Assembly (NCBI RefSeq): GCF_000422565.1
Contig: NZ_AUMA01000009.1
Span: 62,001 to 126,000 of the forward strand
Length of the DNA: 64,000 nucleotides
Direction of reading: 5' to 3'
DNA from: Desulfovibrio aminophilus DSM 12254
GTDB taxonomy: Bacteria; Desulfobacterota; Desulfovibrionia; Desulfovibrionales; Desulfovibrionaceae
Shown here piece after piece: positions 17,050-21,680 of this stretch. How positions within the stretch are numbered: position 1 is the stretch's first letter; each line of letters begins with the position of its first letter. A model generated the notes under the pieces. That model made no database searches. It saw nothing but the letters and a program-made list of their open reading frames with translations, and was not told the DNA's origin. The translations under genes were made by a program, and so were the position numbers.

Positions 17050-17634
17050 CTACAGCGGCTTGCCGGAGACGATCATCTCGGCCAGGGTCAGGTCCACCCG
17101 GGGCAACTGGCGCAGCCGGGAGCCCAGGAACTCCATCTCCAGACGGGCCAGGTCGCGGTAGAGCGCGGTGCGGTCGAGCACGGGGAAGTCCTCCCGGCCC
17201 GCGCACAGCTCCTGGGAGCGGAAACAGCCCGGGAAGGTCTGGCGGCCGCCGTCCGGGCGCACGGTCACGGTGGGCACCCCATGCAGGCGGCAGATCATCA
17301 GACGGTGGGAATAGACGCCGCAGAGTCCGTCGTCGTTGAGCGGGCACATGACGGCCGGGCGCTCGCCCCGGTCCAGGGCCTCGCGGGCCTCGCGCAGGTA
17401 GGCCGCGGCCCGACGCTCATACTCCTGGCGGCGGTCCTCCGGCATGGCCTCCAGGCCCTGCCAGAGATAGGCCCACTCCACGTAGGTGTGGTGCTGGAAG
17501 AAACTCCGGCAGCAGTTGTCCGCGCAGCCGGAACAGCTCAGGCCCAGCCCCTGGGCCGAGGCGTCGTAGGCTATGCCCATGCGCTCATAGAGGGCGGCCA
17601 GCTTGCGGAAGACCGCCTGGGGCGTCGTTTTCAC
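17050..17634 (-). CDS. YkgJ-like cysteine-cluster protein
   Basis: A 194-residue protein with a dense metal-ligand region: CSGCADNCCRSFFQHH (about 34-49), then CPLNDDGLCGVYSHRLMICR (split as CPLNDDGLCG and MICR, about 97-116) and GCFRSQELC (about 137-145). This is the layout of YkgJ-type proteins, presumed to bind zinc or an iron-sulfur cluster. No reaction is known. Its start overlaps the upstream kinase gene by four bases (17631-17634), so it belongs to the pyrR unit. Confidence 0.65.
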   Translation of the reverse strand: MKTTPQAVFRKLAALYERMGIAYDASAQGLGLSCSGCADNCCRSFFQHHTYVEWAYLWQGLEAMPEDRRQEYERRAAAYLREAREALDRGERPAVMCPLNDDGLCGVYSHRLMICRLHGVPTVTVRPDGGRQTFPGCFRSQELCAGREDFPVLDRTALYRDLARLEMEFLGSRLRQLPRVDLTLAEMIVSGKPL

Positions 17635-18179
17635 GCTTTCTCTCCGAACCAGTCCAGGATGCGCACGGCGCAGTCCTCCGGGCTTCCGGCTCCGGTGTCC
17701 ACGCTGAAGTCGGCGGCCGCGCGGTAGAGCGGCTGGCGCTCGGCGTACAGTTCCTCGAAACTCCTGCCCGGCCTCACGGCCAGACCCCGCCCGCCGCCGT
17801 GCCCCACGCGCTCCAGGAAGGTCGCCAGGTCGATCTCCAAAAAAACCACCGGCCCGAGCATCCTGAGCCGGTCCACGGCGCGCCGGGAATAGACCACGCT
17901 GCCGCCGGTGGAGATCACCACCCGCTGCGCGCCCAGGCTGCCCACCTGATGTTCCTCCAGTTGAAGAAAGGTCTCCAGACCCACGCTGTCCAGGAGTTGT
18001 TGCAGGGGCAGGCCATAGTAGGACTCCAGGAGCCGGTCGGTGTCCAGGTGGGCCCAGTCCAGGCGGCGGGCCAACAGCGCCCCCAGGGTGGACTTGCCCG
18101 CTCCGGCCATGCCGATGAGGCTCAGGCAGCGGCGCGGGGTGTCGTCGCGGGGCAGGAGGACGGCGGAAGTGGCGATCAT
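17631..18179 (-). CDS. shikimate-kinase-fold small-molecule kinase (possibly homoserine kinase)
   Basis: A 182-residue P-loop kinase of the shikimate kinase fold: Walker A GMAGAGKS (23-30), DTD (46-48), the STGG segment (90-93) and the lid/ERQPLY region (Arg148). Two substrate-contact features of true AroK/AroL are missing: the arginine of the FR--E motif is Leu72 (TFLQLEE), and the Gly-Gly-Gly loop is Gly-Gly-Ser. Shikimate kinase is therefore doubtful. I recall that a shikimate-kinase-like paralogue in Desulfovibrio has been proposed as the missing homoserine kinase; that would suit these changes. ATG 18179 follows pyrR by seven bases. Confidence 0.7.
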   Translation of the reverse strand: MIATSAVLLPRDDTPRRCLSLIGMAGAGKSTLGALLARRLDWAHLDTDRLLESYYGLPLQQLLDSVGLETFLQLEEHQVGSLGAQRVVISTGGSVVYSRRAVDRLRMLGPVVFLEIDLATFLERVGHGGGRGLAVRPGRSFEELYAERQPLYRAAADFSVDTGAGSPEDCAVRILDWFGEKA

Positions 18180-18186
18180 GGCGGGG

Positions 18187-18720
18187 TCAGCGGACGATGC
18201 AGACCTTGTCTTCGGCGTCGCGCTCGGCCACGAGCACATTCACGTGCTCATGGTCCTGGGTGCTCACCTTCTTGCCCACGTAGTCGGCCTGGATGGGCAG
18301 CTCGCGGTGACCCCGGTCGATGAGCACGAGCAGCTCCACCCGCTTGGGACGCCCGTAGTCCAGAATGGCCTCCAGGGCGGCGCGGATGGTCCGGCCGGAG
18401 AAGAGCACGTCATCCACCAGGACCACGCTGGCCCCCTCCAAATCGAAGGGGATTTCGGTGCAGTTGATGCGCGGCTGGATCTCCAGGCTGGACCAGTCGT
18501 CCCGATAGAGGTTGATGTCCAGCTTGCCCAGGGGAATGCGCCGCCCCAGGCGTTCGTCCAGGCGCTTCTTCAGCCGTTCGGCCAGATCGGCGCCCCGGCG
18601 CTGGATGCCGATGAGCGCGAGCTTTTCGGACTCGCCCCGGCGTTCGATGACTTCCGAGGCCAGCCGGTCCAGGGTCCGGGCCATCTCCCGGCTGCCCAGC
18701 ACGGTGCGGCACTGTTCCAT
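18187..18720 (-). CDS. pyrR: bifunctional pyrimidine regulatory protein / uracil phosphoribosyltransferase
   Basis: A 177-residue type I phosphoribosyltransferase. The PRPP-binding loop VVLVDDVLFSGRTIRAAL (about 93-110) and the LALIGIQRRGADLAERL segment (about 35-51) are PyrR marks. In Gram-positives PyrR binds pyr mRNA; in Desulfovibrio its regulatory role is unproven. It lies nine bases after the TetR gene and seven before the kinase, within one minus-strand unit. Confidence 0.92.
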   Translation of the reverse strand: MEQCRTVLGSREMARTLDRLASEVIERRGESEKLALIGIQRRGADLAERLKKRLDERLGRRIPLGKLDINLYRDDWSSLEIQPRINCTEIPFDLEGASVVLVDDVLFSGRTIRAALEAILDYGRPKRVELLVLIDRGHRELPIQADYVGKKVSTQDHEHVNVLVAERDAEDKVCIVR

Positions 18721-18729
18721 GGCGGCGTC

Positions 18730-19287
18730 CTACTTGACGAGGCTGCGGCGGCAGAAGTCCACGGCCGGGTTGGAGAGATCCTCGACCTCGGGCCAATAGA
18801 GCTTGAGGCGCATGAGCCCGAAGAGCAGCGTGACGAGGATGAGCGCGGTCTGCCGCTCGGGCACGCCCTCCTGGATGGCGTCCTTGGCCTTGGCCTTGCG
18901 CAGGCAGTCCTCGAAGAAGGATTCCATGCGGTAGACCAGGGAGGCCATGGATTTCTTGGCCGCGTCCAGGATGCCGTAGGTGGAGAGCACGATCTTGATG
19001 TCGGCCTCGTTCGCGCGCACGAAGGAAAGATGGTTCTCCAGAACCTTTTCTATGGTCCCGTAGGCGCCGTCGGTCGTCTCCCGGCACTGGACGATGAAGC
19101 GGGAATAGGCCTCCTCCAGGTCGCGCAGGATCTGGAGCAGGATGTCCTCCTTGCTCTCGAAGTGGCGGTAGATGGTGCCTTCGGATATGTTCGCCTGCTT
19201 GGCCAGGCTGGCTGTCGTGGTCCTGTGGAAGCCCACCTCGGCGATCATTTCCTTGGCGGTGTTGAGGATGAGTTCCTTGGTCGTCAT
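18730..19287 (-). CDS. TetR/AcrR family transcriptional regulator
   Basis: A 185-residue repressor. The N-terminal helix-turn-helix is clear: AEVGFHRTTTASLAKQANIS (about 16-35) and EGTIYRHFESKEDIL (about 36-50). The C-terminal ligand domain is not diagnostic. GAGG lies seven bases before ATG 19287. It is divergent from the Sec-HesB gene, and the 206-base gap holds a TGA-N9-TCA palindrome and an 8-bp inverted repeat, so it may control itself and the HesB genes. It is followed closely by pyrR. Confidence 0.9.
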   Translation of the reverse strand: MTTKELILNTAKEMIAEVGFHRTTTASLAKQANISEGTIYRHFESKEDILLQILRDLEEAYSRFIVQCRETTDGAYGTIEKVLENHLSFVRANEADIKIVLSTYGILDAAKKSMASLVYRMESFFEDCLRKAKAKDAIQEGVPERQTALILVTLLFGLMRLKLYWPEVEDLSNPAVDFCRRSLVK

Positions 19288-19344
19288 GGCGGAACCTCGG
19301 TTTCGTTGTCGAGCCGATCCGGTCGCTGGCGCGGCCCGGCGGCC

Positions 19345-19359
19345 TGAAGTGATCGCTCA
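19345..19359. promoter_or_regulatory. candidate TetR operator
   Basis: TGAAGTGATCGCTCA is an imperfect palindrome of the TGA-N9-TCA type used by many TetR repressors, lying 58 bases upstream of the TetR gene and 89 bases before the Sec-HesB -35. Confidence 0.35.
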
Positions 19360-19366
19360 ATCAGGA

Positions 19367-19389
19367 GCTTGGGCGACGTTAGCCCAAGC
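19367..19389. repeat. 8-bp perfect inverted repeat in the TetR/HesB divergent region
   Basis: GCTTGGGC (19367-19374), seven bases, GCCCAAGC (19382-19389). It may be an operator or an RNA hairpin; no T run follows on either strand, so it is not a terminator. Confidence 0.5.
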
Positions 19390-19433
19390 CCGCATCGTGG
19401 TCAACAGACCGGGTTCGGCGGTCAACTTCCTGT

Positions 19434-19462
19434 TTGACAAAAATGGGCCGCGGTCTTACCTC
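19434..19462 (+). promoter_or_regulatory. sigma-70-like promoter of the Sec-HesB gene
   Basis: Perfect TTGACA (19434-19439), 17 bases, TACCTC (19457-19462), giving a leader of about 25 bases with AAGGAGG before ATG 19494. Confidence 0.6.
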
Positions 19463-19493
19463 TGTTTGCCGCGCAGAGCGCAAGGAGGAAGAC

Positions 19494-19841
19494 ATGATCG
19501 AACTCACCCCGTCCGCGAAAAAGCAGCTGGAAGGCTACTTCGCGGACAAGGATGTCACCCCCGTCCGGGTCTACCTGTCCACGGGCGGCTGAGCGGGGCC
19601 TCGGCTCTCGCTGGCTCTGGACGAGCCGCATCAGGACGACGAGACATTCAACGAAGGCGGATTCACGTTTCTGGTCGAAAAGGATCTCCTGACCCAGACC
19701 GGGACCATCCAAATCGACATGACCTACTACGGGTTCTCGGTCACCTCCGAGAAACCCGTCGGCGGAGGAGGCGGCGGTTGCTCCTCCGGCTCTTGCAGCA
19801 CGGGCGGATCCTGCGGAACAGGCGGATCCTGCTCCTGCTGA
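19494..19841 (+). CDS. selenocysteine-containing HesB/IscA-like protein
   Basis: Read with TGA 19590-19592 as selenocysteine, this is a 115-residue protein. It begins MIELTPSAKKQLEGYF; Sec33 follows Thr-Gly-Gly and is followed by AGPRLSLALDEP. Beyond the TGA the frame stays open to TGA 19839-19841 and aligns without gaps to the gene at 19953, where residue 33 is Cys. A hairpin that could be a bacterial SECIS lies just after the TGA. The fold is an A-type iron-sulfur carrier (HesB/IscA). The C-terminus is a Gly/Ser/Cys-rich tail with seven cysteines. AAGGAGG precedes the ATG. HesB-like selenoproteins are a known family in anaerobes; the function of Sec here is unproven. Confidence 0.87.
19593..19632 (+). 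promoter_or_regulatory. candidate bacterial SECIS element
   Basis: Directly after the in-frame TGA, CGGCTC (19602-19607) and GAGCCG (19623-19628) form a perfect 6-bp stem with a 15-base loop that contains GGCTCTGG. Position (nine bases past TGA) and size suit a coding-region SECIS read by SelB, but bacterial SECIS loops vary and the apical motif is not decisive. Confidence 0.5.
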
Positions 19842-19858
19842 CCTTTTCGGACCAATGG

Positions 19859-19896
19859 CCGGGGCGGCGTCCGAAAGGATGCCGCCCCGGAATTTT
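19859..19896 (+). terminator. stem-loop between the two HesB genes
   Basis: A 10-bp perfect stem, CCGGGGCGGC (19859-19868) with GCCGCCCCGG (19881-19890), and a tail AATTTT. The short T run suggests partial termination or RNA stabilisation. Confidence 0.6.
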
Positions 19897-19952
19897 CCGG
19901 CGGCATCCGGCAGTGCGCTCCCAGGCCTGAACATCCCAAGGAGGATATGCCC

Positions 19953-20294
19953 ATGGTCGAACTTTCCGATGCCGCGAAAAAGCAGCTCGAGGACTACTTC
20001 TCGGACAAGACCGCGAGCCCCATCCGGGTCTACGCCGGAGGCGGCTGCTGCTCCGGACCCCGTCTGGCCCTGGCTCTGGACGATCCGCGCGAGAACGACG
20101 ACAGCTTCGCCGCCGGAGGGTTCACCTTCCTGGTGGACAAGGCCCTCCTGGCCCAGACCGGGAACATCCGCGTGGACATGACTCCCTACGGCTTCTCCGT
20201 GGAGTCGGACAATCCGCTGGAAGGCGGCGGATCCTGCGCCTCCTCGGGCACCTGCGGCGGCTGCGGCAGCAGCGGCAGCTCCTGCGGCGGCTGA
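19953..20294 (+). CDS. HesB/IscA-like protein, cysteine paralogue
   Basis: A 113-residue protein nearly collinear with the Sec protein upstream: VELSDAAKKQLEDYF at the start, GGGCCSGPRLALALDD around Cys32-Cys33, GGFTFLVDKALLAQTG and DMTPYGFSVES. It ends in a Gly/Ser/Cys-rich tail. ATG 19953 has AAGGAGG eight bases upstream and aligns with the Sec protein start; ATG 19947 lies too close to that site. A-type carriers bind iron or [Fe-S] clusters; this subgroup lacks the classical C-terminal CGC, so the tail cysteines may serve instead. hypA follows beyond a terminator. Confidence 0.85.
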   Translation: MVELSDAAKKQLEDYFSDKTASPIRVYAGGGCCSGPRLALALDDPRENDDSFAAGGFTFLVDKALLAQTGNIRVDMTPYGFSVESDNPLEGGGSCASSGTCGGCGSSGSSCGG

Positions 20295-20314
20295 GCCGAC
20301 GAACCTGACGCCGA

Positions 20315-20350
20315 AGGGCGGTTTCCCACGGGAAGCCGCCCTTTCCTTTT
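20315..20350 (+). terminator. intrinsic terminator after the HesB pair
   Basis: AGGGCGG and CCGCCCT arms, extended by TTCCC/GGGAA around an ACG loop (20315-20342), followed by TTCCTTTT. Confidence 0.85.
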
Positions 20351-20359
20351 GTCCGCGCC

Positions 20360-20388
20360 TTGCCGCTGGCCCTGAATTGGGGTAAGCC
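20360..20388 (+). promoter_or_regulatory. promoter placed for a leaderless hypA transcript
   Basis: TTGCCG (20360-20365), 17 bases, TAAGCC (20383-20388). ATG 20397 follows after eight bases and has no Shine-Dalgarno sequence. Confidence 0.4.
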
Positions 20389-20396
20389 ACCCTCCC

Positions 20397-20744
20397 ATGC
20401 ATGAACTTTCCCTGGTGCAGAGCATGATGACCATCATCCTCGAGGAGCGCGACCGGCACGACCTGGGCAAGGTCAGCCGGGTGCGGGTGCGCAACGGCGC
20501 CCTGGCCGGAGCCGTCACCGAGGCCCTGACCTTCGCCTGGGAGGCCCTGACCCCGGGCTCGGAGCTGGAGGGCGTGGAGCTGATCGTCGAGGAGGTGCCG
20601 CTCAAGGTGCGTTGCGGCTCCTGCAAGACCGAGTTCGCCCCCGAGGACCGACACTACATGCCCTGCCCCAAATGCGGCGAATTCCTGGGCCACGAAGTGC
20701 TGGCCGGCAAGGAACTGCTCATCGAATCCATCGAGGCCGACTAG
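20397..20744 (+). CDS. hypA: hydrogenase nickel-insertion protein HypA
   Basis: A 115-residue nickel chaperone for [NiFe] hydrogenase maturation. The N-terminal MHELSL carries the nickel-binding His2, and two CxxC pairs (CGSC and CPKC) form the structural zinc site. It hands nickel to the hydrogenase large subunit together with HypB, whose gene follows 15 bases on. No ribosome site precedes the ATG. Confidence 0.96.
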   Translation: MHELSLVQSMMTIILEERDRHDLGKVSRVRVRNGALAGAVTEALTFAWEALTPGSELEGVELIVEEVPLKVRCGSCKTEFAPEDRHYMPCPKCGEFLGHEVLAGKELLIESIEAD

Positions 20745-20759
20745 GCCCTGGGAGAAGAC

Positions 20760-21416
20760 ATGGAAATTCCCGTCGTGCGCAACGTCCTGGAGGCCAACGA
20801 CCGCCTCGCCGAATCCCTGGCCGCGATCTTCCGGGCCAAGGGCATCCTCTGCCTGAACCTCATGAGCTCGCCGGGCGCGGGCAAGACCTCGCTCCTGGAG
20901 CGGACGCTCTCCGACCTCAAGGACGAATTCCGCATGGCCGTCATCGAGGGCGACCTCCAGACCGACAACGACGCCCGCCGCGTGGCCGCCACCGGGGCCC
21001 AGGCCGTGCAGGTCAACACCGAGGGCGGCTGCCACCTGGACTCGGGCATGGTCCTGGACGCCCTGAAGAGCATCGACACCGAGGGCCTGGACATCCTCTT
21101 CATCGAAAACGTGGGCAACCTGGTCTGCCCGGCCGAGTTCAACCTGGGCGAGGACCACAAGATTTCGATTCTCTCGGTCACCGAGGGCGACGACAAGCCC
21201 GAAAAATACCCGCTCATGTTCCACATCTCCTCGGTCATGCTCCTGAACAAGACCGATCTGCTGCCTTATGTGGACTTCGACCTGGAGCGGGCCTCGGCCC
21301 ACGCCCGCAAGCTGAACGCCGAGATCCACGTCCTGCCCGTGTCCTGCAGGAACGGCGAGGGCCTGGACCAATGGTACGGCTGGCTGCGCCGGGCCCGGGC
21401 CGCCAAACGCGGCTGA
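20760..21416 (+). CDS. hypB: hydrogenase nickel-insertion GTPase HypB
   Basis: A 218-residue SIMIBI GTPase. The P-loop is MSSPGAGKTSLLE (about 35-47), the metal site is GGCHLD (about 90-95), and NKTD (about 163-166) gives guanine specificity. The protein starts directly at the G domain and lacks the His-rich or CxxCGC N-terminal nickel store of many HypB proteins. GTP hydrolysis drives nickel transfer with HypA. It is followed by a strong terminator. Confidence 0.96.
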   Translation: MEIPVVRNVLEANDRLAESLAAIFRAKGILCLNLMSSPGAGKTSLLERTLSDLKDEFRMAVIEGDLQTDNDARRVAATGAQAVQVNTEGGCHLDSGMVLDALKSIDTEGLDILFIENVGNLVCPAEFNLGEDHKISILSVTEGDDKPEKYPLMFHISSVMLLNKTDLLPYVDFDLERASAHARKLNAEIHVLPVSCRNGEGLDQWYGWLRRARAAKRG

Positions 21417-21435
21417 ACCGATCCCGCGACCGCAA

Positions 21436-21464
21436 GGGCCGCCCCGCCGGGGCGGCCCTTTTTT
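21436..21464 (+). terminator. intrinsic terminator of hypAB
   Basis: GGGCCGCCCC (21436-21445), loop GCC, GGGGCGGCCC (21449-21458), then six T residues. Confidence 0.95.
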
Positions 21465-21680
21465 CGTCCCGCCGGACCCAGGCCCCACCCGGGAACCCTT
21501 TCACGGCGTGATGCCCAGGGGGCCTTGTCCTCCTTCGATCCTCGCGGGGCATGGACTTTTGCGACGGTTGTGTTATCGTGCGCCCGCGATGCAGCTTCTT
21601 GGCATTTTTATCGAATGATTTCGGGTAATTGGTTTTGTGACACAGCGGCTTTCGCCGCGCCAGTCCCGGACGGAGGGTCC

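Follow-up and report, generated by a model that had tools for sequence, protein, structure and literature searches.

The locus analysed here raises two questions: whether a short reading frame with a TGA at codon 33 is read through to give a selenoprotein of the HesB/IscA type, and what such a protein would do next to a paralogue that carries Cys at the same position and upstream of hypA and hypB. It is located in the window, the whole 64,000-nucleotide stretch of contig NZ_AUMA01000009.1 of Desulfovibrio aminophilus DSM 12254, and the features are given in window coordinates (Table 1).

Table 1. Features of the Sec/Cys locus and its flanking genes (window coordinates).
Feature	Position	Strand	Basis
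pyrR, most constant divergent neighbor	18187..18720	-	NF003549, 232.8 bits (cut-off 138)
Divergent TetR-family regulator	18730..19287	-	PF00440
Candidate promoter of the Sec gene (TTGACA, 17 nt, TACCTC)	19434..19462	+	TTGACA 19434-19439 and TACCTC 19457-19462, read directly
Ribosome site AAGGAGG	19482..19488	+	Read directly
Predicted HesB/IscA-type selenoprotein gene, 115 residues with Sec33	19494..19841	+	NF038090, PF01521, U/C survey
UGA codon very probably read as selenocysteine	19590..19592	+	Codon 33; aligned site is U or Cys in 94 of 98 copies
Putative SECIS-type hairpin GGCUC-UGGAC-GAGCC	19613..19627	+	20 nt past the UGA; five of five pairs in Sec copies
Gly/Ser/Cys-rich C-terminal tail, predicted disordered, possible further Cys ligands	19767..19838	+	pLDDT, Cys conservation
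14-bp hairpin with GAAA loop, then AATTTT, between the Sec and Cys genes; possible attenuator or terminator	19859..19890	+	Read directly
Cys paralogue of the selenoprotein	19947..20294	+	NF038090, 106.9 bits; Cys at the Sec column
Terminator-like hairpin between the Cys paralogue and hypA	20313..20344	+	Terminator scan
hypA and hypB, downstream neighbors	20397..21416	+	Profile matches

The reading frame starts with the ATG at 19494, reaches the UGA at codon 33, and continues for 82 more sense codons to a second TGA (19839-19841). Direct reading bears out the first-pass annotation, made from the sequence alone, which had described coding sequence on both sides of the first TGA and a gap-free alignment with the neighboring paralogue, where the residue at this site is Cys; the alignment has no gaps over 86 codons. 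In the 53 codons past the UGA, the identity between the two genes is 83, 83 and 49% at codon positions 1, 2 and 3, a pattern that fits selection at the protein level. The 32 codons before the UGA (66, 75 and 72%) do not have such a pattern. Within genus, the dN/dS ratios for two genome pairs are 0.08 and 0.19 before the UGA and 0.10 and 0.20 after it. A degraded 3′ part in the homologues had been named beforehand as evidence against a selenoprotein; this part is instead under purifying selection. Judged from these comparisons, the gene has the in-frame UGA and the conserved downstream coding sequence that mark a bacterial selenoprotein, and it very probably uses the internal stop codon to insert selenocysteine. 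A second selenocysteine at the terminal TGA, which follows the residues CSC, was considered and dropped. The last codon of the Sec copies is TAG in 19, TGA in 15 and TAA in nine of them (one more runs off its contig), and the terminal TGA is therefore an ordinary stop.

The predicted protein is a member of a known family. It matches the NCBIfam model NF038090 (IscA_HesB_Se) with 113.8 bits (cut-off 85) and Pfam PF01521 with 32.1 bits (cut-off 26.3). Both copies, Sec and Cys, match NF038090 above its cut-off and over nearly the full profile, and nothing was found against membership. For TIGR01911 (HesB_rel_seleno), the score is 30.8 bits, below the cut-off of 66.35, and the window protein represents a related subfamily; it has in common with that family a similar length and the UxGP motif (UAGP in the window gene), a motif described in a review (PMC13188914). 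DVU_1382 of Desulfovibrio vulgaris, from the same bacterial group, likewise has a TGA-encoded residue; it is a protein of this kind and probably an ortholog, and it is listed as a HesB-family TGA case in a 2007 paper (PMC1914089). Table 3 of PMC1794560 includes HesB-like selenoproteins from both D. vulgaris and D. desulfuricans, and the family is included in the lists of PMC1088965 and of the reviews PMC9312934 and PMC13188914. For a distant HesB-like selenoprotein of methanogens, PMC11097638 calls the function unclear and mentions, as an unpublished observation, a disruption mutant with unimpaired nitrogen fixation.

The Sec gene is thus neither new in kind nor unannotatable by default, as had been claimed at first, because NF038090 matches it and DVU_1382 was listed in 2007 (PMC1914089); TIGR01911 is in NCBIfam as well. 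The HesB/IscA selenoprotein family has been catalogued for some twenty years, and the find is real, largely ordinary, and opens no new class. A gene caller that takes TGA as a stop would, however, truncate the gene. The additions made here are modest: the hairpin of this protein family is now sharply defined, and the distribution of Sec and Cys copies has been mapped in sampled genomes of a single bacterial family. In the open-licence literature, searched by title and the start of the abstract, no paper was found on the tandem Sec/Cys pair or on this hairpin.

The machinery for selenocysteine insertion is present in the genome that contains the window (99.98% complete). It has a tRNA-Sec (79.5 bits), selA, selB and selD, and selD itself holds one in-frame TGA. 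A search for selA, selB, selC and selD had been proposed as a check, with the absence of selB and tRNA-Sec to count against the selenoprotein; all four genes were found, these two among them, so that by sequence matches the gene set expected of a bacterial selenoprotein producer is complete.

In a sample of 199 genomes of the same family, at least 185 have a homologue and at least 169 have a tRNA-Sec over the cut-off; of the thirty that lack tRNA-Sec, ten were identified by elimination. Thirteen genomes with a completeness of 90% or more and a contamination of 5% or less have no tRNA-Sec among the matches listed, and 12 of these have a homologue. The copies that were read are Cys in 10 of the 12 (a 34-residue fragment in G056 was left unread in this count), and none of the five of these ten Cys-only genomes that were searched for selB had it at E 1e-60. 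The other two genomes, G162 and G169, carry U and do have selB, and their tRNA-Sec may therefore be hidden by filter loss or an assembly gap. Five further U-bearing genomes run counter to this pattern: G022, G030, G144, G174 and G188, which are 64-84% complete, have neither tRNA-Sec nor selB among the matches listed.

The exchange of U and Cys at the aligned site, for which an alignment of homologues had been suggested, was found in a survey of 98 copies from 65 loci, 61 genomes and 30 genera. Of these, 50 carry Cys, 44 carry U and four have some other residue. The 44 U copies come one each from 44 genomes in 26 genera. The loci were the best matches together with chosen genera and genomes without tRNA-Sec, and the sample is therefore non-random; 71 loci were scanned, and six that repeated a gene already covered were left out, while L056 and L100, which contain the same Cys gene of G008, are both counted. 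The copies were delimited at TAA and TAG, and TAA or TAG at codon 33 thus lies outside what this reading could show. With U in the window and U or Cys in 94 of the 98 copies, the site appears by alignment to have the Sec or Cys residue expected of an NF038090 member. The four copies with A, D, S and S at the site (L094 2854-3162, L091 4729-5034, L097 4482-4772 and L055 1938-2231, respectively) are each accompanied by a Sec copy in the same locus, and are possibly derivatives that do not bind a cluster.

The Sec copies are set apart from the Cys copies by a hairpin just past the UGA. All five pairs of GGCUC-UGGAY-GAGCC, with the 5′ arm GGCTC at 19613-19617 in the window, are formed in 43 of 43 Sec copies and in 0 of 49 distinct Cys copies. 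This comparison leaves out L076, which has an N in the stretch and is also absent from the tree below, the four copies with D, A, S and S at the site, and one of the 50 Cys stretches, a duplicate. There are two compensatory changes among the Sec copies. In L084, both sides of the outermost pair are changed and pairing is kept as A-U, and in L058 the fourth pair is changed on both sides to C-G, at the cost of a Glu-to-Gly replacement. A G-U pair is found in L087. Moreover, GCT encodes the Ala within the stem in 42 of 43 Sec copies, whereas at the remaining Ala positions of the Sec genes it accounts for 51 of 294 codons (Fisher p 2.7e-26, a guide only, as the rows are related and the value overstates their independence). 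The mean folding energy past the site does not separate the two groups (-17.6 for Sec and -16.9 for Cys); only the specific hairpin does. An Rfam search of 19200-20500 gave five matches up to E 5, all below the gathering scores and none of them a selenocysteine element. On these comparisons, the gene has a putative SECIS hairpin shortly past the UGA, as is typical of bacterial selenoproteins.

The first-pass annotation had proposed a 6-bp stem starting nine bases after the TGA. A hairpin does exist, and the stem described (CGGCTC at 19602-19607 with GAGCCG at 19623-19628) is present in the window, where it has its 3′ arm in common with the conserved hairpin. Its six pairs are complete, however, in only one of the 43 Sec copies, the window's own, and it was rejected as the SECIS. 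Remnants of the conserved hairpin in the Cys copies were also considered; 7 of 50 keep four of the five pairs, which is too weak to argue from. The Cys paralogue in the window is one of these seven and has the GCT codon as well; together these features may be a fossil of a change from Sec to Cys.

These observations bear on the simplest alternative, that the TGA is a nonsense mutation or a sequencing error in a decaying duplicate and the downstream frame is open by chance. GC-rich DNA keeps frames open easily and an intact Cys copy adjoins the gene, in line with such decay, but 44 genomes from 26 genera share a TGA at this codon, selection past the UGA is purifying, and the hairpin is conserved in the Sec copies. 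We regard decay or error as extremely improbable. The match to NF038090 over its cut-off, the U/C exchange, the Sec machinery and the hairpin together uphold the initial identification of a HesB/IscA-like selenoprotein, and it is very likely that the gene encodes a functional member of this family with an IscA-like fold. In translation, SelB would bind the hairpin and deliver Sec-tRNA to the UGA.

The predicted structure is similar to those of IscA and SufA. A profile of 50 homologues matches IscA and its relatives among solved structures. The AlphaFold2 model has a mean pLDDT of 79.9, with residues 91-115 under 50, and the top Foldseek matches of this model are SufA (2d2a) and IscA (1x0g, 1r94 and 1s98), with E values of 3e-6 to 2e-5 and TM-scores by query of 0.53-0.65. 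By the Foldseek matches and PF01521, the protein is predicted to have the IscA fold expected of an A-type carrier. In the alignment with E. coli IscA, residue 33 corresponds to the SGCSG-loop Cys, which we take to be a cluster ligand. A-type carriers have three Cys ligands, in the arrangement C-x63-C-x-C. In the Sec protein, the first position is Sec33, and in place of the exact C-x-C there is a variable Cys-rich tail, in which Cys96 is invariant and Cys101 and Cys107 are nearly invariant among 50 sequences. The fold and the position of the first-Cys loop are therefore common to E. coli IscA/SufA and the Sec protein, whereas Sec takes the place of Cys, and a Gly/Cys-rich tail that of the compact C-terminal CGC.

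A role as an A-type Fe-S carrier is the most likely one by homology, because the fold and the loop position match those of IscA and SufA. Sec33 would replace the first cluster-ligand Cys of IscA, and together with Cys residues of the flexible Gly/Cys tail it may hold an Fe-S cluster or iron and pass it to client enzymes. On the present analysis, the protein is probably such a carrier, with Sec as one ligand, and acts beside a Cys isoform. The frequent juxtaposition of Sec and Cys versions of a small carrier-like protein would offer a natural test bed for the contribution of selenium to an Fe-S carrier.

Instead, the protein could have kept the IscA fold and lost the carrier role, to become a redox selenoenzyme or a metal(loid)-binding protein. 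The GGUxGP motif at the site and the long Cys-rich tail are compatible with this, as are the scores for the IscA, SufA and ErpA equivalogs (TIGR02011, TIGR01997 and NF010147), which at 26.7, 20.2 and 17.2 bits are below the cut-offs of 150.6, 136.2 and 117. In addition, most uncharacterised selenoproteins are likely redox proteins according to a review (PMC13188914). The site has no UxxC or CxxU pair, however, and the fold and loop position agree with IscA. A search with PF01521 picked out no strong canonical A-type carrier in any of ten genomes, which also speaks against loss of the carrier role, as weak evidence since the same search missed known copies of the selenoprotein family. A redox or metal(loid)-binding function is considered unlikely, with a modest chance of being correct. 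A third A-type-like open reading frame in the genome of the window (G000:C15, L185 589-870) encodes a 93-residue ErpA-like protein that ends in VVSCCKK and scores below the NCBIfam cut-offs.

The first-pass annotation had taken the adjacent hypA and hypB as a hint of a link to the maturation of Ni/Fe or NiFeSe enzymes. A dedicated factor for the maturation of Ni/Fe or NiFeSe hydrogenases would be consistent with the position of hypA, which in at least 16 of 46 chosen genomes and 9 of 24 genera follows the HesB gene in the same orientation at a distance of up to 15 kb (a lower bound, as several genomes are fragmented). Moreover, hydrogenases of E. coli need the A-type carriers ErpA and IscA (PMC3283652). 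At shorter range, five of the 44 Sec copies (3 of 26 genera) have hypA within 3.5 kb downstream, compared to 35 (21 of 26 genera) that have a divergent pyrR at a distance of no more than 1 kb. These counts are lower bounds because the downstream flank is shorter than 3.5 kb in 15 of the 44 Sec rows and 13 rows are short upstream.

Ten longer loci were examined, and in seven of them the HesB gene and hypA are separated by a gene cluster that runs in the opposite direction; in L171, the genes of this cluster best match parts of a branched-chain amino-acid ABC transporter and acyl-CoA ligases, below the equivalog cut-offs. A conserved operon with hyp genes, as expected for a hydrogenase maturation factor, was not found across the sampled loci. 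The closeness of the HesB gene and hypA looks like an old gene order with the middle missing, because the opposite-strand cluster intervenes in most of these loci. The proximity to hypAB was rejected as evidence of an operon; it looks like loose ancestral gene order, and hypA and hypB are probably on a transcript separate from the Sec and Cys genes. In the window, the Cys gene and hypA are also separated by a terminator-like hairpin. In the genome of the window, neither of the two hydrogenase large-subunit genes has an in-frame TGA, so that no NiFeSe hydrogenase was found there, and G008 has the Cys form with no hypA match among the matches listed. The suggested NiFeSe link is unsupported, the hint from hypAB is weak, and a dedicated role in hydrogenase maturation is improbable.

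On the other side of the locus, a divergent TetR-family gene lies within 400 bp of at least 13 of 44 Sec copies, in at least 6 of 26 genera. The stretch 17631-18239 encodes a shikimate-kinase-like protein that carries the NCBIfam name homoserine kinase (NF040667 hom_kin_desulfo, 225 bits, cut-off 197).

The tandem Cys copy would be an isoform of the same protein. The strong ribosome site noted earlier for the Sec gene is confirmed, and GGAG is located at most 20 nt upstream in 44 of 44 Sec copies. The promoter proposed at the same time stands as a layout of TTGACA and TACCTC, although a plain sigma-70 scan missed this layout and gave 0 promoters. The pattern TTGAC[ATC]-N15-18-TA[TC][TCA]T is found upstream of 32 of 44 Sec copies, in 19 of 26 genera, and of 12 of 54 other copies; it was picked after the sequences had been viewed, and the background is a mean of 0.15 in 200 mononucleotide shuffles. 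A terminator scan of 19280-21500 gave three terminator-like sites, among them the one between the Cys paralogue and hypA, with 1.4 expected by chance; the hairpin between the Sec and Cys genes is absent from its results. Among the Sec-Cys spacers of six genera, those of g29, g43, g3 and g26 have a hairpin and a T run, that of g1, the genus of the window, has a hairpin with a weaker T run, and that of g42 has none that is clear.

A second copy is found in the same locus for 30 of the 44 Sec copies, in 15 genera (a lower bound). The best tree of 96 copies has 17 changes between the Sec and Cys labels, and the supported branches force at least six. A single origin of the Cys copies is unsupported by this tree, which has few columns to resolve it. 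The forced changes suggest that Sec/Cys pairs were remade or converted repeatedly, within the limits set by the short sequences. The tandem could be a selenium-responsive isoform switch of the main A-type carrier of the Desulfovibrionaceae, with separate promoters, a terminator in between, and pairs repeatedly remade by duplication and Sec/Cys exchange. Such a switch is doubtful, with a small chance of being correct; if it operates, Fe-S delivery would follow the selenium supply.

An inverted repeat, GCTTGGGC-GACGTTA-GCCCAAGC, is located at 19367-19389 between the divergent TetR and HesB genes and is a possible TetR operator. In the two other genomes of the genus, the right half of this repeat can be seen, at least in part.
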